From positions 124,001 through 188,000 of the forward strand of contig NZ_LGKP01000015.1 in NCBI RefSeq assembly GCF_001306135.1: a DNA stretch of 64,000 nucleotides, read 5' to 3'. Below the pieces are notes generated by a model. It was not told the origin of the DNA. It did not search any database and saw only the letters and a program-made list of their open reading frames with translations. The position numbers and the translations under genes were made by a program. Positions 41,303-49,289 of the stretch are shown piece by piece (the first letter of the stretch is position 1; every line of letters starts with the position of its first letter). This stretch comes from Herpetosiphon geysericola (lineage in GTDB: Bacteria > Chloroflexota > Chloroflexia > Chloroflexales > Herpetosiphonaceae).

Positions 41303-41439
41303 CTAGGCTGGTTTGACATACTTATTTTTAGATTCAGCAGTTATGACCTGCATGCCGACTGTCGAGCTAGCAAGCATTTGTTGCCCAATGGTGGTTAATC
41401 GTCACTCATTGAAATCGTACATAGCAGAAGGATTTGGCG

Positions 41440-42156
41440 ATGGCTGAGCATGTGCCGACAATTTTGGTAATCGAAGATGCTGTTGATTTGGCAGATGTGT
41501 TGGTGCGCGAACTCACTAATTTGGGCTATCGGGTTTGGCATGCTGCCGATGGCCGCACAGGCCTCAATTTACACCAGCAACATCAACCAGATTTAGTTAT
41601 TTTGGATTGGATGTTGCCGCAGCTTGATGGCCTAGAGGTCTTGCGCACGATTCGCCAAACCAAATCGACCCCAGTGCTGATGTTGACGGCCCGTAGCGAA
41701 GAAACCGATTTAGTGGTGGGTTTGGAGCTTGGCGCTGATGATTATTTGACCAAGCCATTTGGCATGCGCGAGCTGATTGCGCGTGTGCGGGCATTGTTGC
41801 GCCGCGACCAGCGGATTCAACAATTGTTACAGGCCGATGGGCAACCAGCAACCGAAGTCTTGCGCTATGGCGAATTAGTGCTTGACCCACATTTGCATAC
41901 GGTTGCTTTGCGCCAACAAGAGCTCGATTTGACTCCAACTGAGTTTGCGATTCTCGATTTATTGTTGCGCAACCCAGGCCGCGCATTTAGTCGCAACTAC
42001 TTGCTCGATACAATTTGGGGCCAAAGCTATGTTGGCGGCGATCGCTCGGTCGATAATGCAATGCTGCGTTTGCGCAAAAAGCTGGCCGATTTTGGTGATG
42101 CAATCGAAACGGTTTGGGGCCTTGGTTATCGTTTGCAAGCGGAAGCACCACGATGA
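41440..42156 (+). CDS. OmpR/PhoB-family response regulator
   Basis: A 238-residue regulator: receiver with acidic pair in VIEDAVD, phospho-acceptor Asp in LVILDWMLP, VLMLTARS and DDYLTKPFG, then a winged-helix domain with LDLTPTEFAIL, SRNYLLDTIWG and DRSVDNAMLRLRKKL. ATG at 41440 has GAAGGA seven bases upstream. The stop overlaps the histidine kinase start as ATGA. It lies directly upstream of the polyamine-linked cluster and is the obvious candidate regulator of it. Confidence 0.96.
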   Translation: MAEHVPTILVIEDAVDLADVLVRELTNLGYRVWHAADGRTGLNLHQQHQPDLVILDWMLPQLDGLEVLRTIRQTKSTPVLMLTARSEETDLVVGLELGADDYLTKPFGMRELIARVRALLRRDQRIQQLLQADGQPATEVLRYGELVLDPHLHTVALRQQELDLTPTEFAILDLLLRNPGRAFSRNYLLDTIWGQSYVGGDRSVDNAMLRLRKKLADFGDAIETVWGLGYRLQAEAPR

Positions 42157-43760
42157 AGTATTGGCTGCGTTGGTATGCACATGCAGGGCTGTGGCGGGCT
42201 TGGCTCTATATGCTGCTTTTCGACAGCATGTTCTTAGGTAGCTTATTGTTGCTTGTTGAGTGGCTACCGGTTGATGTATATGTCTTGATGAATGGCGGCT
42301 TTTTTATTATTGGCATTGGCGCTGTGGTGTTTGGCTTGAGCTTGGCGTTCGCTGAAGGTGGCTTTTGGCGTACATTGTTGCTTGAGCTTGCTGCATGGGT
42401 GCTTGCGCTGATCAGTTTGACCTTGCTCGGCAGTTTTGTTTCGTGGTATGAACTTTCACGTCCCATGAGCGCATGGCAGGATGAATTTTATATCGCGTTT
42501 CCCGATATGCTGCTCTTTTTTAGCATCCACAATGTGACATTTATTGGAACCCGTTGCTTAATGTGGTTTTGGCGTTGGTGGAATCGCTTGCGCAAACGTT
42601 CGTTGCTCTGGACGTTGACCCATGATCAATTAACCATTGTTTTTATATTGATGGTGATCTTTGGGGTTACCGTGGCCGGGCTTTCGATTTATATGCGTGG
42701 CAATGAGTTGGCGAACTCCGATAATTCAACCACATTCTTGATTGAAAATGTCGTGCAATATTCGTTGCTGGGTTCGATCTATGGCGCGCTGATGATCGTC
42801 GGCCTGTTTATATTTTTGCCCGTGGCGATGATCCTTTCGTATATGTTGATTCGGCGGGTTATTCGGCGCATTGAAGCCTTGGCGATGGCTACCAATGCGT
42901 TGCGTGAGGGCGATTATAGCTCGCGGATTGTGGTATATGGCAACGATGAAATTGCTCAGCTCCAGGCTAATTTTAATGCCATGGCCGAACAACTGGATAC
43001 GACAGTCAATGCCCTCAAAACCGAGCGCGATCGCGTCGCGGGCTTGCTTGATGATCGGCGCGCCTTAGTTGCCAGCGTTTCGCATGAATTGCGCACGCCA
43101 GTTGCGACGATGCGCGGCTACCTTGAATCGAATTTGCAAGCAGAACAACTATTAACGCCCCAAGTCCAGCGCGATTTGCTCGTCATGGAGCGCGAAACGC
43201 TGCGCTTACAACAATTGATTGAAGATTTGTTTTTGCTTTCGGCCAGCGAAGTCAGCCGTTTGACCCTCAACCTTGAAGCGCATGACCTAGCGCCCTTGAT
43301 CAATCGCATTGTCCAAACCGTTCAGCCTTTGGCATGGCGCCAATCGCGAGTTGATGTGTTGGCTGAGTGTGCCGCCGCGCTTGATCAAGCATTGATTGAT
43401 CCTCAACGTTTTGAGCAAATTTTGCGCAACTTGTTGCATAATGCCTTGCGCTACACGCCGCCTGGGGGCTTGGTGGTGGTGCAAGCACTCAATCATGCCA
43501 ACCAGATTGAAATTTATGTCCGTGATACTGGTGTTGGGATCAACCCCACTGAGCTTGATTCAATTTGGCAGCGCTTTTATCGCGCCAACGATCAGGCCAA
43601 CGAACAGCATCAAGGCGCTGGCTTAGGCCTAGCCTTGGTCAAAGAATTAAGCGAAGCTATGGGTGGCTCGGTTAGTGTTGAAAGTCAGCTGGGTGTTGGC
43701 ACCAGCTTTTGCATTCGTTTCCCCAAAGCCGCGAAACCAATGCTTGCAAACGTTTCCTAG
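42153..43760 (+). CDS. Multi-pass sensor histidine kinase
   Basis: A 535-residue membrane kinase. The N-terminal ~150 residues contain four or more hydrophobic segments with only short loops, followed by another membrane pair (~170-240) and a HAMP domain. The HisKA site is VASVSHELRTPVATMRGYLES, with N box NLLHNALRYTPPGG, G1 DTGVGI and G2 GAGLGLALVKEL, all intact. The lack of a large external domain suggests membrane-state or intramembrane sensing. It is coupled to the response regulator and is 126 bases upstream of the spermidine-synthase fusion. Confidence 0.94.
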   Translation: MKYWLRWYAHAGLWRAWLYMLLFDSMFLGSLLLLVEWLPVDVYVLMNGGFFIIGIGAVVFGLSLAFAEGGFWRTLLLELAAWVLALISLTLLGSFVSWYELSRPMSAWQDEFYIAFPDMLLFFSIHNVTFIGTRCLMWFWRWWNRLRKRSLLWTLTHDQLTIVFILMVIFGVTVAGLSIYMRGNELANSDNSTTFLIENVVQYSLLGSIYGALMIVGLFIFLPVAMILSYMLIRRVIRRIEALAMATNALREGDYSSRIVVYGNDEIAQLQANFNAMAEQLDTTVNALKTERDRVAGLLDDRRALVASVSHELRTPVATMRGYLESNLQAEQLLTPQVQRDLLVMERETLRLQQLIEDLFLLSASEVSRLTLNLEAHDLAPLINRIVQTVQPLAWRQSRVDVLAECAAALDQALIDPQRFEQILRNLLHNALRYTPPGGLVVVQALNHANQIEIYVRDTGVGINPTELDSIWQRFYRANDQANEQHQGAGLGLALVKELSEAMGGSVSVESQLGVGTSFCIRFPKAAKPMLANVS

Positions 43761-43886: not shown

Positions 43887-46340
43887 ATGACCATTGTCCT
43901 TGATCAACGCTCCGATCAATCCCTTGCCGTCTATATTGACGGCGATTTGCAGTTTGATAGCCGTGATGAAGGGGTGTACCACGAGCTTTTGGCCTTGCCT
44001 GCGCTCGCATTAGCCCAAGCACGCCGCCCCAAACGCCAACTCCGAGCGTTGATTTGTGGTGGTGGCGATGGTTTTGTTGCCCGCGAATTGCTCAAATCTA
44101 CAGCCATCAAGCAAATCGATTTGGTCGATTATGACCCAACGATCCTTGATTTGGCCCAAAATGAATGGCCTGAGCTGAATCAGCATGCCATGATCAACCC
44201 ACGCTTAAAAGTGCATATCTGCGATGCAGTTCAATTCGTTGATCAGGCGGCACAGGCAGCCGATGAATACGATTTAATTATTTGCGATTTTACCGTGCCC
44301 CGCGATCAGATTGGTGCGCGCTTGCATAGCATCGATTGGTATCAGCAATTGGCCTATATTTTGCATCCTCAGGGTGTTATCGCAGTCAACGCGGCCTCGC
44401 CATCGCAAACGCCAGTTGCCTATTGGATGATTTACAACAGCATTCGAACTGCCAACCTGAATCCTAAGCCGTATCGTTTTTCGTTGCCCTCGTTTACCGA
44501 GGCTGGCTATGGCGATGATTGGGGCTTTTTTGTTGGTAGCCGTAAAGCGTTTCGCCCACGCGAGTTTGATCATTTGGCCTTGGCTGAGCCACGCGAGTTT
44601 TTGCACGATAGCGAGCAGCTTAAACGGGCTTTTGCCTTCCCTGCTGCATTGGCCGAAAAACGCGCCATCGCCCAACCAACCAAACTTGCCAGCGACGCGC
44701 TGTTGCATAGTTTATTCGCGCCAACGTGGGATGCAGCTAGCGGCACCGATTGGACGTCGCTTGATTTTGTGCATGATCCAGCGCCACTGCCCAAGCCGCA
44801 TACCAGCGCAACCTTGATGCCAAATGCAGTTCAGCAAGCGTTGCAGGCCGATCAAGGGCTTGATGAAAGCCAAGTCTTTGAGCAAGTTGTGCAGGTGATG
44901 CCAGCCTTGCGGGCCGAGCAAACTAGGAGCATGGTTGCTGAATTTATCGCCAATCCACTACGCTTTCTGAATTCGCTCGATCTGCGGCGCTTGGTCGAGG
45001 CCTTATTGCGGCGTAGCCGCGAGTTGCCACGCAAATTGGTGGCCGAATTGCGCTTGTTGCGCCGTCATCTTCAGCGCACATGGGAAAACCCGCAATTGCT
45101 GCTTAGTCGGGGCTTGCGCATCGTTTCGGTGATTGCCTTGGTGATTATTTTGGCCAACTTGCTCCACCCAGATACGACCTACGCCAAAGGTGATACCTCG
45201 GCAGGTTCGGGCGCAACCTCCAGCCAATCGATGGTGCGCACAAACTCACCCTACGATGTGGTGCAAGCGCCGCCTTCAACGGTTGAAGGTCGTGGATTTT
45301 CGAGCGGCACCTATGGGCGGGGCAGCGTGATTGACGAATATGGCTCGGCCTATCCAACCCGTCGCTATCGCTACTATGGCTCATATTACGGTGGCAGTTC
45401 GTATCGCAACTACAACCGCAACCAACGCCCAAGCGAAGATCCCAACGAAGGCGATGCGCTCTATCGGCTGACTCCAGAGACCGATATTTTGGCCAATGGT
45501 GAAGTCGTGATTAGCTTGACTGATCAAGCATATTTGTTGCTAGCTGATCAAGTAATGACCGTCGTCGATGCAGAAGATGGCTTGCCAATTGTGTTTTTGC
45601 AACGCGACGAAGCCTTGGTTTGGCGCACCCATCGCGAGCTTGATCGCCAGCGGCGCGGGCTTGATGGCAGTGTCAAAGCCAAACAAGATTGGATCGATTG
45701 GGTCAGTTGGGCTGGCTTTGTGCCATGGCGCAACGATGATCAAGCAGAGCTGAACAATATTGTGCAAACCCGTGGCACGCTTGATCAAGCGATTAAAAGC
45801 TTGGGTTCGATTCCTGCTAATCAGCCAGCGATTCGGGTTGCCCCAACTGCTGGTGGCTTTCAATTATTCTCCAGTGTTTGGATGAATGCTGAAGGCACGT
45901 TGGCAATCTTAGAGCAGCCCGATGGCAGCAAGGCCTATCTTAACAAAACTGGCTGGTTCAGCGATAGCGGCTTAACCCAACCGCTGAGCGAGCCGTATCC
46001 AGAAGAGTTTCGCACCAAAGTTTTGATTCCGTTTTTGACCAAGCAAACAACTGAGTATGCAGCGATCAAGCAGCGGATTGAAGCCGATTTAACCAGCGTT
46101 AAAAGTGATTTGAGCCTGCTCAACTCGGATAAAACCGAGTATACCTCGATTCAAAGCAGTTATGGGCCAAGCGATATTGTCGAGTACGGCACGACCGAAA
46201 TTCGGGTTGACGAAGCGTTACGCCGAACCAACGATGATATTGCGCGAACTGAGCAGTTGATTCAGGTCTTGAACGATCAACTCAGCGCATTGCCAAAACA
46301 AGACAATGCAGCCAAGAAGTTTTTGCAGAGCTTGAAATAA
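43887..46340 (+). CDS. Spermidine-synthase-like domain fused to a membrane-anchored extracytoplasmic region
   Basis: An 817-residue protein. Residues 1-240 resemble spermidine synthase: YHELLALPAL (31-40), dcSAM-binding CGGGDG (57-62), VDYD (80-83) and LIICDFTVP (130-138), where the second Asp of the usual DxxD is Val137. A middle helical region has no known domain. One membrane helix lies at ~409-428, then a Tyr/Arg/Gly/Ser-rich stretch (RYRYYGSYYGG), a novel external domain and a C-terminal coiled coil (~745-815). The aminopropyl-transfer domain would be cytoplasmic. ATG at 43887 follows GGAGA. The stop overlaps the FemAB gene as TAATG. Confidence 0.87.
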   Translation: MTIVLDQRSDQSLAVYIDGDLQFDSRDEGVYHELLALPALALAQARRPKRQLRALICGGGDGFVARELLKSTAIKQIDLVDYDPTILDLAQNEWPELNQHAMINPRLKVHICDAVQFVDQAAQAADEYDLIICDFTVPRDQIGARLHSIDWYQQLAYILHPQGVIAVNAASPSQTPVAYWMIYNSIRTANLNPKPYRFSLPSFTEAGYGDDWGFFVGSRKAFRPREFDHLALAEPREFLHDSEQLKRAFAFPAALAEKRAIAQPTKLASDALLHSLFAPTWDAASGTDWTSLDFVHDPAPLPKPHTSATLMPNAVQQALQADQGLDESQVFEQVVQVMPALRAEQTRSMVAEFIANPLRFLNSLDLRRLVEALLRRSRELPRKLVAELRLLRRHLQRTWENPQLLLSRGLRIVSVIALVIILANLLHPDTTYAKGDTSAGSGATSSQSMVRTNSPYDVVQAPPSTVEGRGFSSGTYGRGSVIDEYGSAYPTRRYRYYGSYYGGSSYRNYNRNQRPSEDPNEGDALYRLTPETDILANGEVVISLTDQAYLLLADQVMTVVDAEDGLPIVFLQRDEALVWRTHRELDRQRRGLDGSVKAKQDWIDWVSWAGFVPWRNDDQAELNNIVQTRGTLDQAIKSLGSIPANQPAIRVAPTAGGFQLFSSVWMNAEGTLAILEQPDGSKAYLNKTGWFSDSGLTQPLSEPYPEEFRTKVLIPFLTKQTTEYAAIKQRIEADLTSVKSDLSLLNSDKTEYTSIQSSYGPSDIVEYGTTEIRVDEALRRTNDDIARTEQLIQVLNDQLSALPKQDNAAKKFLQSLK

Positions 46341-47365
46341 TGCAGGTTGCGATTCTGCCCCAACTAACGATTGCCAGCAAGCTCGGCCAGCAGTGGGAGG
46401 CTTTAGTGCAAGCCAACCCTGCTGGCGGCGTGATGCAAAGCCTTGCCTGGAGCCAATTTAAGCAGCAGCGCGGTTTGCAGGTTGTGCATTTTGGCTTATT
46501 TGAGGCTGAGCAATTAATTGGTGGTATGCTCTGCACGATTCCTGCCCAAAGCGGGGTTGGTAGCAACTTAATCGCTGCTGATGGGCCAATTTTGCCCTGG
46601 CACGATCAAGCATTGGCGCGCCAAGGTTTACGCTTATTGCGCGAAGCTGCGGAAACGCATGCCGCTGAGTATGGGGCAATTGGTTTGCGGATCGAGCCAC
46701 GGCTTGAGCGTCCAGCGCCCAATTTGTTGCGCGATTGGCGGCGTGCTCCGGTCGATATTTTGGCCCGCGAAACGCTGTATTTGGATTTGCAGCCCGATGA
46801 ACAAAGCTTGCTGGCGGCGATGAAGCCCAAAGGCCGCTACAACATTCGCTTGGCGGCACGACGTGGCGTAACAGTCCGCATCTCGCATGATGTGGCTGAT
46901 ATTCCTTTGTTTTATCGCTTGATGGATGAGGCTGGCGAGCGCGACGATTTCTATGTTGAGCCGATTGATCATTTTAACGATCTCTTGGCGACGCTTGCTC
47001 CGCTGGGCCATGCCCATTTGATCTTTGCCGAATATGCTGGCCAAACCTTAGCAACCATGTTGTTGGTTACCTATGGTCAACGGGCAGTCTATCAATATGG
47101 CGGGATTAGCAACCAACGGCGTGAGCAGATGGCAGGCTACGCCTTACAATGGGCTGCAATTCAGCATGCCAAGGCTTTGGGCTGCAGCTGTTACGATTTT
47201 TATGGCTATGAACCAACAGGCGATCCCCATCATCCGTTTGCTGGCTTTTCGCGCTTCAAACGGGCCTTTGGTGGGCAAGCAATCGCTTTGATTGGCGCAT
47301 ATGATTATTATTTCACCGAACAATTAGCCGATGTCATTATTCGCGCAGTGCGCGAATTGGCATAG
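46340..47365 (+). CDS. FemAB/FemX-like peptidyl aminoacyltransferase (GNAT fold)
   Basis: A 341-residue protein with tandem GNAT-like folds of the FemABX family. Landmarks: GGVMQSLAWSQFKQQRGL, the conserved basic loop MKPKGRYNIRLAARRGV, MLLVTYGQRAVYQYGGIS and the C-terminal YDFYGYEPTGDPHHPFAGFSRFKRAFGG. The family adds amino acids to lipid-linked peptidoglycan precursors from aminoacyl-tRNA, or acts as amino-group acyltransferase. Here, in an operon with polyamine-synthesis domains, a polyamine or its derivative as acceptor or donor is conceivable but unproven. Confidence 0.9.
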   Translation: MQVAILPQLTIASKLGQQWEALVQANPAGGVMQSLAWSQFKQQRGLQVVHFGLFEAEQLIGGMLCTIPAQSGVGSNLIAADGPILPWHDQALARQGLRLLREAAETHAAEYGAIGLRIEPRLERPAPNLLRDWRRAPVDILARETLYLDLQPDEQSLLAAMKPKGRYNIRLAARRGVTVRISHDVADIPLFYRLMDEAGERDDFYVEPIDHFNDLLATLAPLGHAHLIFAEYAGQTLATMLLVTYGQRAVYQYGGISNQRREQMAGYALQWAAIQHAKALGCSCYDFYGYEPTGDPHHPFAGFSRFKRAFGGQAIALIGAYDYYFTEQLADVIIRAVRELA

Positions 47366-47409
47366 TTAATTGGTGTGAGGATGCCTTTTAGTGCTTCCGA
47401 GGAGGCTTA

Positions 47410-47784
47410 ATGACTCAACCGCCACGTTTTGGCCGGATTCCGCCAGACACCGCCCAATTGGTTGCGGGCCTAGCCCAAACCGTTGCTGGGCAAGTTGTCA
47501 CTGCATTGCCCAACCATGCTGGCCATGGCACGCGGGCCGCAGCAACCGAAATTATTTTGGGGATTGTGTTGCGCGACTGGCGCGAAAATGAAAACGTCTC
47601 TGGGTTATTGCCCGATGACGTGGCCGATTTACGTTCGTTTGTGCAGCTGGCGGCAACCCTTGCTGGCAACGATCTTGAAAATCAGGGCGCACCGGTGTTT
47701 CGGGCGGTCTTGACTGGATTGATGGAAGATTGGCTCGCCAATTGGAATGCCCCAGGCGATCCAGGCCCACCAGGTAAATACTAA
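47410..47784 (+). CDS. Small soluble protein sharing a novel domain with the gene at 48,055
   Basis: A 124-residue protein of unrecognised family. Its sequence aligns nearly end to end with the last ~115 residues of the membrane protein two genes on: GRIPP, VLRDW..NEN..GL, DV.DL..FVQLA, VFRA.L..LM.DW...WN and a C-terminal G.PG..Y. There is no signal peptide or membrane helix. It starts after a GGAGG, 44 bases downstream of the FemAB gene. The conserved Trp/Asn/Asp pattern suggests a helical binding domain. The function is unknown. Confidence 0.8.
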   Translation: MTQPPRFGRIPPDTAQLVAGLAQTVAGQVVTALPNHAGHGTRAAATEIILGIVLRDWRENENVSGLLPDDVADLRSFVQLAATLAGNDLENQGAPVFRAVLTGLMEDWLANWNAPGDPGPPGKY

Positions 47785-47828
47785 GCACTTATGCGGGATA
47801 AAGCCCTCTTGATAGTTAAGGAGCATGC

Positions 47829-48053
47829 ATGTCCTCTGAAACCATTTTGCCATTGTTGGGCCGGATTGCCGCCTCAATTGGTTGGACACTCGTCAGTGTT
47901 TTGATTTTTTATGGTGGCGCGCGCCTTTACGATTTGCTTGATCCAATTGATTATCGGGAAGAGATTAAACGGGGCAATGTTGCGGCTGCAATTCAAATGG
48001 CTGCGGTAACAATCGCCTTGGCTGCAATCGTTATTATGGCAGTGGCAACCTAA
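47829..48053 (+). CDS. DUF350-like small membrane protein
   Basis: A 74-residue protein with two membrane helices (~12-32 and ~52-72). The connecting loop, YDLLDPIDYREEIKRGNVAAAIQMA, matches the DUF350/UPF0719 repeat, where a polar loop is followed by a GNxAAA helix. It represents one half of the usual four-helix DUF350 protein. AAGGAG precedes the start and the next gene begins one base after its stop. DUF350 is known to neighbour polyamine-type genes, as here; its function is unknown. Confidence 0.75.
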   Translation: MSSETILPLLGRIAASIGWTLVSVLIFYGGARLYDLLDPIDYREEIKRGNVAAAIQMAAVTIALAAIVIMAVAT

Positions 48054-48054
48054 C

Positions 48055-48897
48055 ATGGATACACAAACCCAACCATTTTGGCAACGCTTCGGCATCTATA
48101 CGCTTAGTCTTGGCTTGGGTGGGGCTATTGCCAGTTTTCTTTCGTTGTTGCTAGGCAATCTCATTTTTGGCCGTTCTAGTCGCGTGCTTACTGGTGGTAT
48201 GCCAGTATTTCTTGTGATTATGATGGTTATTGTTGGGATTGCAGCTTATTTTATCATCAAGCGCTGGATGAGTGGCTTTGCTAGCTTTCTAGCAATTGGT
48301 GGCTGGTTTTTGGCGCACTTCATCGTTAATGTCATCGCAGTTGCCTTTTTCGATGCAGATATGTCGATTGTTTCCTATATCGTCACCTGGTTGATTATGG
48401 GAGCGCTTGGCGCACTGATGTTCAGTAATTCTAGCTTTGCCAAATCAATTGGCTTAGCTGGCGCAGGCACAGCAATCGGGGCTGGCATCTATGCTGCATC
48501 ACGCAAAAACGAGGTGCTCAAGGCCTCTGGCTATGGGCGAATTCCGCCATCAACCGTGATTTTGCTGAACCAACATGTGCGCTTTACCAACGATGCGATC
48601 AATCAACTGCCACCGAATACCCCAGCCAATTTTCGCAAGATTGCCGTCGAAATCGTGCTTGATCGCGTGATTCGCGATTGGTGGTCGAACGAAAATACCG
48701 ATGGATTAACCCCAACCGATGTCAATGATTTAGGCGCGTTTGTCCAACTGGCTTGGTTTGCAGCGCGTGGTCAAAGCCATATTCTGCAAGCAGAAGCGGT
48801 TTTTCGGGCCTGTCTGAGTGCATTGATGGATGATTGGTTTAATGCCTGGAATGCTGACGGAGTTGAAGGCGCACCGGGCTGGCAATACAATTCATGA
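48055..48897 (+). CDS. Membrane protein with C-terminal novel domain
   Basis: A 280-residue protein. About five hydrophobic segments occupy residues ~12-150 (for example MPVFLVIMMVIVGIAAYFII). Then a soluble domain of ~115 residues begins at GYGRIPPSTV and matches the small protein at 47,410, with the same VIRDWWSNENTDGLTP, FVQLA, VFRACL, LMDDWFNAWN and GAPGWQY landmarks. It overlaps speD as ATGA and starts one base after the DUF350-like stop. The arrangement gives one soluble and one membrane-tethered version of the domain in the same transcript. Confidence 0.82.
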   Translation: MDTQTQPFWQRFGIYTLSLGLGGAIASFLSLLLGNLIFGRSSRVLTGGMPVFLVIMMVIVGIAAYFIIKRWMSGFASFLAIGGWFLAHFIVNVIAVAFFDADMSIVSYIVTWLIMGALGALMFSNSSFAKSIGLAGAGTAIGAGIYAASRKNEVLKASGYGRIPPSTVILLNQHVRFTNDAINQLPPNTPANFRKIAVEIVLDRVIRDWWSNENTDGLTPTDVNDLGAFVQLAWFAARGQSHILQAEAVFRACLSALMDDWFNAWNADGVEGAPGWQYNS

Positions 48898-49289
48898 GCA
48901 ATTTCATCCAAGATCCAACCTATCCCGCTGCTGGGCGTCACCTACTTGCAAATTTAGGTGGCTGCTCAGCAGCAATCCTCAATGATTGCGCTTTGCTGCA
49001 AACTATTGTGATGCAAGCAGCAGCTGCGACCAACGCCACGGTGCTCGAAATTGTGGCCCATCAATTCACGCCCCACGGTGTTACCATTGTGGCTGTGTTA
49101 GGCGAAAGCCATGCCTCGTTGCACACCTATCCTGAGCACGGAGCGGCCTTTTGGGATTGTTTTACCTGTGGTGATCAATGCCAACCTGAAGCTTCACTAG
49201 CGGTGCTCGTTGCTGCACTGCATGCGACAAATGTCCATTCTCAGCTTATAGACCGTACTATCAGCGAAGTCACCCAAACAGCCCCCTAG
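48894..49289 (+). CDS. speH: S-adenosylmethionine decarboxylase proenzyme, SpeH type
   Basis: A 131-residue pyruvoyl enzyme that makes decarboxylated SAM, the aminopropyl donor. The self-cleavage site is in LGESHASLHTYPEHG: Ser72 becomes the pyruvoyl group, with His77 and Cys92 (in FTCG) at the canonical +5 and +20 positions. The length matches the small bacterial class 1b form. It overlaps the upstream membrane gene by 4 bases. With the spermidine-synthase-like fusion in the same cluster the decarboxylation and transfer steps are both encoded. Confidence 0.95.
   Translation: MSNFIQDPTYPAAGRHLLANLGGCSAAILNDCALLQTIVMQAAAATNATVLEIVAHQFTPHGVTIVAVLGESHASLHTYPEHGAAFWDCFTCGDQCQPEASLAVLVAALHATNVHSQLIDRTISEVTQTAP

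Follow-up and report, generated by a model that had tools for sequence, protein, structure and literature searches.

A FemAB-containing branch of the DUF350/SpeE/AdoMet-decarboxylase systems in Chloroflexota and Cyanobacteriota

What does a spermidine synthase-like protein do next to a FemAB aminoacyltransferase at the cell membrane? Operons combining DUF350, SpeE, and AdoMet decarboxylase are widespread, and the sole proposals for them are membrane stability or the aminopropylation of unnamed substrates. The question is raised by a cluster of six ORFs (Table 1) in a 64,000-nucleotide stretch of the Herpetosiphon geysericola genome (NZ_LGKP01000015.1, positions 124,001 to 188,000), hereafter called the window. 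ORF calling on the window placed all six at 43887-49289 on the forward strand, in the order described in a first-pass annotation that had been made from the letters alone. The Spermine_synth, FemAB, DUF350, and AdoMet_dc assignments of that annotation were confirmed by Pfam and NCBIfam. Its statement that most junctions overlap or touch is true of three of the five junctions (a 1-nt overlap, a 1-nt gap, and a 4-nt overlap) but not of the two 44-nt gaps. The explanation favored here, to which I give slightly less than an even chance, is a membrane-anchored two-enzyme module that would combine the aminopropylation of a non-putrescine amine, dependent on decarboxylated SAM (dcSAM), with a tRNA-dependent aminoacylation.

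Table 1. The six genes of the cluster, with positions in the window
Protein	Description	Length (aa)	Position	Strand	Evidence
SpeEf	SpeE-TM fusion	817	43887..46340	+	Pfam PF01564 (Spermine_synth) 1.2e-23
FemAB	double GNAT family	341	46340..47365	+	Pfam PF02388 5.7e-37
X1	stand-alone four-helix domain, undescribed	124	47410..47784	+	
DUF350	membrane protein, DUF350 at half length, two TM segments predicted	74	47829..48053	+	PF03994 2.8e-11
X2	about 4 TM segments, with the X1 domain repeated at the C-terminus	280	48055..48897	+	domain match, hydropathy
SpeH	class 1b S-adenosylmethionine decarboxylase	131	48894..49289	+	PF02675 (AdoMet_dc) 3.6e-33; TIGR03330

Since an identical gene order recurs in further genera and also in a second phylum, the cluster is not a product of chance. 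The co-conservation in relatives on which the first-pass annotation had staked its reading was indeed found: the module is present in a sister genus, in another family of the order, in a Chloroflexota MAG, and in Cyanobacteriota/Obscuribacterales MAGs. A scan for promoters and terminators gave counts no higher than those of shuffled sequences. The two-component genes lying upstream (41434-43760) were considered as additional members and rejected, since they do not adjoin the cluster in H. aurantiacus.

Which of the genes are constant? The genomes sampled comprised 400 of Chloroflexota and 386 of the Cyanobacteriota phylum. Wherever the two genes were found on one contig, in 19 distinct loci, the SpeE-type gene was directly followed by FemAB. 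These loci, in the finding of which FemAB played no part, span Chloroflexota, Obscuribacterales/Melainabacteria, and Cyanobacteriota. The constant core is the SpeE-type protein plus FemAB, and SpeH, DUF350, and X1/X2 are variable. Loci L109 and L116 have the pair with SpeH only, L108 and L110 have it with no accessory genes close by, and in L062, L063, L064, and L067 it is accompanied by X1-(DUF350)-X2. In eight Cyanobacteriota genomes (L140-L147), the pair occurs with DUF4178 in every case, with an 8TM DUF350 in seven, and usually with a divergent AdoMet decarboxylase alongside. SpeH is missing from several pair loci; an AdoMet decarboxylase was found in all nine genomes tested. The genes do belong together, as the first-pass annotation held and their recurrence indicates, with SpeH, DUF350, and the X proteins as non-constant members. 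FemAB and spermidine synthase jointly gave no match in the literature searched, a search that most subscription journals lie outside of.

SpeH has the equivalents of S63, H68, and C83 of the T. maritima enzyme, which serve self-processing and catalysis (PMC10407285), as well as those of F49 and E72; W70 is replaced with Tyr. Neofunctionalized homologs of class 1b AdoMet decarboxylase exist (PMC10407285), and SpeH scores over the TIGR03330 cut-off. The production of dcSAM by SpeH is a well-supported prediction.

The fold of SpeEf matches that of spermidine synthases of known structure (1uir at a Foldseek E of 5.6e-14). Its aminopropyltransferase-type domain (residues 1 to about 230) is followed by a helical linker, one TM segment (about residues 410-430), a Tyr/Gly-rich stretch, and a C-terminal part made of beta and coiled-coil elements. 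Hydropathy gives a single hydrophobic segment, and the charge around it predicts that the C-terminal part lies outside the cytoplasm. No fold is claimed for this part, because six sequences stand behind it and the AlphaFold model (mean pLDDT 69.8) is of low confidence at residues 426-524.

Is SpeEf still an enzyme, and for which amine? In the alignment, the dcSAM side of the FemAB-linked SpeE clade is kept in 19/19 (the GGGD Asp, Tyr, His, and Gln), and so is the catalytic Asp that deprotonates the attacking amine, its role in spermidine synthase (PMC12812037). In contrast, the Asp binding the far, non-reacting amine of putrescine is found in none of the 19 (Val in SpeEf), while it is present in 6/6 7TM-SpeE and in 17 of 20 canonical SpeE sequences, the Chloroflexota exceptions having Ser (one) or Glu (two). 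In a plant enzyme, the Ala mutant of this residue loses 20-fold activity (PMC3725402). Thus, SpeEf resembles canonical SpeE in fold, dcSAM-side residues, and catalytic Asp, and differs in the distal-amine Asp, in a Gln that is Asn in 19/19 of its clade, and in having no N-terminal domain before the core. Since the distal-amine anchor is lost while the donor pocket and the catalytic Asp are kept, I infer that SpeEf would transfer aminopropyl to an amine other than free putrescine, an argument based on the alignment and not on a bound structure.

Alternatively, SpeH and SpeEf could simply make spermidine or N1-aminopropylagmatine for the cell by ordinary synthesis at the membrane, with FemAB and the membrane parts serving placement, or with FemAB aminoacylating the free polyamine. 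In the Herpetosiphon genome, no other strong SpeE accompanies SpeEf and no second AdoMet decarboxylase accompanies SpeH (a single match). An arginine-decarboxylase-like protein of the Orn/Arg-decarboxylase family, which scores under the SpeA cut-off, is also encoded, together with two proteins of the arginase family, and the intact catalytic and donor residues suit such a pathway. However, it does not explain why the distal Asp is absent throughout the clade, why the constant partner is FemAB and not SpeH, or why the sister genus retains the module, SpeEf included, alongside a separate canonical SpeE-SpeH pair. Ordinary polyamine synthesis is an unlikely explanation. The earlier claim that this is no plain polyamine pathway gains from the lost Asp, but the standing of SpeEf as the sole strong SpeE leaves room for a spermidine role in Herpetosiphon.

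What, then, may FemAB act on? It has relatives with solved structures (6snr and 1ne9). In FemX, K36, R211, and Y215 bind UDP-MurNAc-pentapeptide and Phe304-Lys305 is catalytic (PMC4964394). The cluster FemABs share the family profile with the FemX/FemAB peptidoglycan enzymes, as well as the K36 equivalent (Lys41; Lys or Arg in 20/20) and the Phe-Lys pair (F306-K307 in 20/20), which was aligned with that of S. aureus FemX and whose equivalence to Phe304-Lys305 in W. viridescens numbering is by motif. In contrast, the Arg211 site, which is Arg in both W. viridescens and S. aureus FemX, is Glu (Glu207) in 20/20, and the Tyr215 site is Phe or His in 19/20. The Glu speaks against FemAB simply acting on wall precursors as FemX does, and an acidic residue in place of Arg would fit an acceptor that is cationic. 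FemX-like natural-product ligases, Orf11 (BD-12), VlmA, and DhpH-C, act on non-wall amines and may be a model for the reaction type, likened by description and not by sequence; the available part of the source describes no polyamine enzyme partner for them (PMC12945691).

Could FemAB be a peptidoglycan interpeptide-bridge enzyme after all, placed next to SpeE for regulatory convenience and sharing no chemistry with it? Its family membership is clear. Herpetosiphon-type walls need FemX-like enzymes, but a second FemAB encoded elsewhere in the genome (360 aa, 30% identical) could do the wall job. The invariant pairing with SpeE across two phyla and the universal Glu at the Arg211 site also speak against a wall-bridge enzyme, which I regard as highly improbable. 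In the FemAB tree, the cluster FemABs group together against the other FemAB of the genome. Because support for the inner order is weak and paralogous pairs are not resolved, no co-phylogeny is claimed.

How does the cluster relate to known systems? It is a FemAB-containing branch of the DUF350/SpeE/AdoMet-decarboxylase systems. Li et al. in 2019 reportedly described AdoMet decarboxylase in polyamine-independent gene clusters, beside non-standard partners. That work (Biochem J 476:2579) is cited in the available text of PMC11237479, where PSP-linked operons of DUF350, 7TM-SpeE, DUF4178, and AdoMet decarboxylase are described (E. coli yjf-type and Shewanella-type); the link between DUF350 and spermidine-type genes that the first-pass annotation mentioned is a published one. 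The membrane-tied SpeE domain, DUF350, and AdoMet decarboxylase are common to these operons and the cluster, and DUF4178 is also found in its Cyanobacteriota relatives. One locus (L039) has PspA-DUF350-7TM-SpeE. In SpeEf, however, the SpeE domain starts at residue 1 and has a single C-terminal TM, while 7TM-SpeE has an N-terminal 7TM part. FemAB is constant here and does not appear in the available text of PMC11237479 on DUF350 operons, and X1/X2 are new relative to these operons. In the tree, the FemAB-linked SpeE domains form one clade (support 100/99), separate from and adjacent to the 7TM-SpeE group (96/79); the joint split of both from canonical SpeE has support 100/94.

Such kinship brings in a PSP-linked monitor of envelope stress, a role proposed for PspA-co-occurring 7TM-SpeE/DUF350/DUF4178 systems (PMC11237479, available text). 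The SpeE-type domain would sense the dcSAM or polyamine state and adjust the membrane with DUF350 and the X proteins, and FemAB would then alter the wall. The DUF4178 and DUF350 partners in Cyanobacteriota are consistent with this, as is the two-component pair, which adjoins the cluster in some species but is absent from that position in H. aurantiacus. Unlike in a pure sensor, the SpeE catalytic residues are fully conserved, and a profile search of the six genes found no PspA, band-7, or CesT-like protein, nor DUF4178 or an ATP-grasp ligase. A stress monitor seems distinctly unlikely.

In the two-enzyme module favored here, SpeH would supply dcSAM, and the SpeE-type domain, tethered at the inner face of the membrane, would aminopropylate its amine. 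Candidates for the molecule that carries this amine are lipids, peptides, and envelope precursors. The first-pass annotation had proposed that a polyamine-like group is attached to wall precursors, lipids, or an external polymer, a reading that is supported in part. FemAB would draw on aminoacyl-tRNA to attach an amino acid to the molecule that SpeEf modifies, either ahead of the aminopropylation or after it; that the two enzymes share a target is suggested by their constant association and by the retained Phe-Lys pair. More speculatively, DUF350 or X2, together with the C-terminal part of SpeEf, may have the task of positioning, moving, or sensing the product at the membrane, and X1/X2 may be scaffold-like helical domains. 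It is a tentative and somewhat doubtful proposal that one membrane-associated amine receives both an aminopropyl group, donated by dcSAM, and an amino acid, donated by aminoacyl-tRNA, so that Chloroflexota and Cyanobacteriota would carry a polyamine-like decoration that is aminoacylated. The FemAB-paired branch narrows the search by a constant partner of known reaction type and gives a specific residue prediction on what the aminopropyltransferase does not bind; culturable hosts (Herpetosiphon and Cyanobacteriota) allow a product hunt by mass spectrometry.

X1 and X2 matched no curated Pfam or NCBIfam family. The domain said to be common to both was borne out, X1 being about 46% identical to the C-terminal part of X2, and an alignment of 15 rows has 16 invariant columns. 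The X1 model has four helices (mean pLDDT 88.3). Against solved structures, the best Foldseek E was 1.7 and the VIA Z was 6.3 or lower, to a helical bundle; because these scores are within background, no fold relative is claimed, which does not make the fold new. The membrane part of X2 was considered as a diverged DUF350 and rejected (HMM-HMM probability 0.8, E 0.074 over 34 columns). As a family marker, the domain that X1 and X2 share is new and conserved. The DUF350 protein itself is of half length, covering profile positions 4-66 of 133, and is the only DUF350 in the genome.

The six plus-strand genes of the first-pass annotation are all present, and it was found by profile searches that the cluster encodes SpeE-type, FemAB, DUF350, and AdoMet decarboxylase (SpeH) domains, while X1 and X2 matched no curated family. 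The 280-aa X2 carries, in its C-terminal part, a domain that it shares with the 124-aa X1. For X1, a four-helix domain was modeled with confidence (pLDDT 88.3), and no convincing relative was found among solved structures. The model of SpeEf, a SpeE-type domain fused to one C-terminal TM segment and a predicted extracytoplasmic part, is good over the SpeE domain only, which resembles spermidine synthases. H. llansteffanensis (L034) has the regulatory genes listed below at the same place, whereas H. aurantiacus (L033) lacks them there.

Coordinates of the cluster and of related features
Feature	Sequence	Positions	Strand
SpeEf-FemAB-X1-DUF350-X2-SpeH cluster	window	43887-49289	+
Response regulator and histidine kinase, directly upstream of the cluster	window	41434-43760	
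Orn/Arg/DAP-decarboxylase-family protein (580 aa); best match SpeA, far under the SpeA cut-off	L057	1060-2802	
Tandem array, 21-base unit, about TCGTCCAACGAGTTTCRTCTC, in the X2-SpeH gap of G302	L032	6717-7003	
Canonical SpeE-SpeH pair of G070	L118	8094-9294	
X1, then DUF350-like first TM stretch fused to X domain	L065	7992-9084	
X1, then DUF350-like first TM stretch fused to X domain	L066	8004-9083	

Is this cluster common in Chloroflexota? The full-length SpeEf fusion occurs in eight of the 400 sampled genomes, namely six Herpetosiphon, a sister genus of the same family (G070), and a member of another family in the same order (G302), and the same eight carry the X domain. The window's SpeEf and its G034 counterpart share 98% identity. 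In G302, the whole six-gene set is conserved in order, with a repeat-rich gap separating SpeH from the rest. G070 has the first five genes, a terminator-like sequence after X2, and no SpeH there; its canonical SpeE-SpeH pair lies elsewhere, besides the SpeEf module.

An X-domain scan of 84,980 species gave ten loci; one of them belongs to a Chloroflexota MAG and five to MAGs of Cyanobacteriota/Obscuribacterales. L062 and L063 have SpeEf-FemAB-X1-DUF350-X2, L064 lacks the DUF350 gene of this order, and L067 has FemAB-X1-DUF350-X2 with SpeEf on a different contig of the genome. Family searches in the genomes of X-domain loci added SpeEf-FemAB-SpeH (L109 and L116) and SpeEf-FemAB (L108 and L110). 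A profile search of 386 Cyanobacteriota genomes found 11, some already known; G457 has SpeEf-FemAB-X1-X2-like genes. In eight of the 386, a shorter SpeE-TM protein (~490 aa) without the extracytoplasmic part is followed by FemAB, together with DUF4178 (8/8), DUF350 (7/8), and a nearby AdoMet decarboxylase (6/8). The two Obscuribacterales MAG loci with an X-domain fusion (L065 and L066) have no SpeE or FemAB, and an MBOAT-like membrane protein comes next after the fusion.

Wherever the two genes share a contig (19 distinct loci), FemAB is directly downstream of the SpeE-type gene. Since FemAB never served as a query, this adjacency is not a product of the search. A tree of 45 rows places the 19 FemAB-linked SpeE domains in a single group (support 100/99). 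The adjoining group is that of the 7TM-SpeE proteins from DUF350 systems (96/79), and canonical SpeE is separate from the two (100/94). No FemAB neighbor was found at the 7TM-SpeE loci examined, two of whose contigs are short. Combinations of DUF350, 7TM-SpeE, DUF4178, AdoMet decarboxylase, and PspA/CesT are already described, with a suggested role in polyamine monitoring or aminopropylation of other substrates (PMC11237479). FemAB is absent from the descriptions consulted in that paper, and none of the papers searched covers FemAB together with spermidine synthase. Thus, the FemAB-containing form appears to be new, within a kind of DUF350/SpeE/AdoMet decarboxylase system that is already known.

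The donor-side residues (GGGD Asp, Tyr, His, and Gln) and the catalytic Asp, which deprotonates the attacking amine (PMC12812037), are retained in 19/19 FemAB-linked SpeEs. In plant and human enzymes, putrescine's non-reacting amine is bound by the second Asp of DxxDP, and the Ala mutant of this residue shows a 20-fold activity loss (PMC3725402). This Asp is present in 6/6 7TM-SpeEs and 17/20 canonical rows (acidic in 19/20) and in none of the 19, which have Val, Ser, Trp, Leu, Cys, or Tyr instead; the neighboring Gln is Asn in all 19. Thus, use of the donor seems unimpaired, and the change appears to lie in acceptor binding. The cluster FemABs retain Lys41 and Phe306-Lys307, and 20/20 have Glu207 where both FemX enzymes (W. 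viridescens and S. aureus) have a substrate-binding Arg (PMC4964394 for residue roles). Judging from these residues, the acceptor side seems altered in both enzymes. In SpeH, the self-processing and catalytic residues and the F49 and E72 equivalents are retained.

For this conserved gene pair, with donor-side and catalytic residues intact and acceptor residues altered in the alignments, I infer decarboxylated-SAM-dependent transfer of an aminopropyl group, at the inner face of the membrane, to an amine other than putrescine; this would be coupled to aminoacyl-tRNA-dependent aminoacylation. The step order and the acceptor are matters of speculation, as is a role of DUF350, X2, and the SpeEf C-terminal part in export or sensing. 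The leading alternative, a normal spermidine pathway located at the membrane, remains a candidate for Herpetosiphon, since SpeEf is there without any other strong SpeE; in the window's genome, the two weaker matches are in frames of 581 aa and 725 aa. SpeH and the cluster DUF350 are the only members of their families in that genome, and a second FemAB, 30% identical to the cluster FemAB, lies on another contig. A putrescine route is possible there, given an arginine-decarboxylase-like protein (134 bits, well below the SpeA cut-off of 369), a diaminopimelate decarboxylase, and two arginase-family proteins.

A second, diverged AdoMet_dc group, with matches starting MFGPHLILEAYGC, was found at L113, L115, L117, L119, and L121. 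SpeD homologues that have turned into ornithine/arginine decarboxylases are reported from Melainabacteria (PMC10407285), and this group may represent such enzymes.
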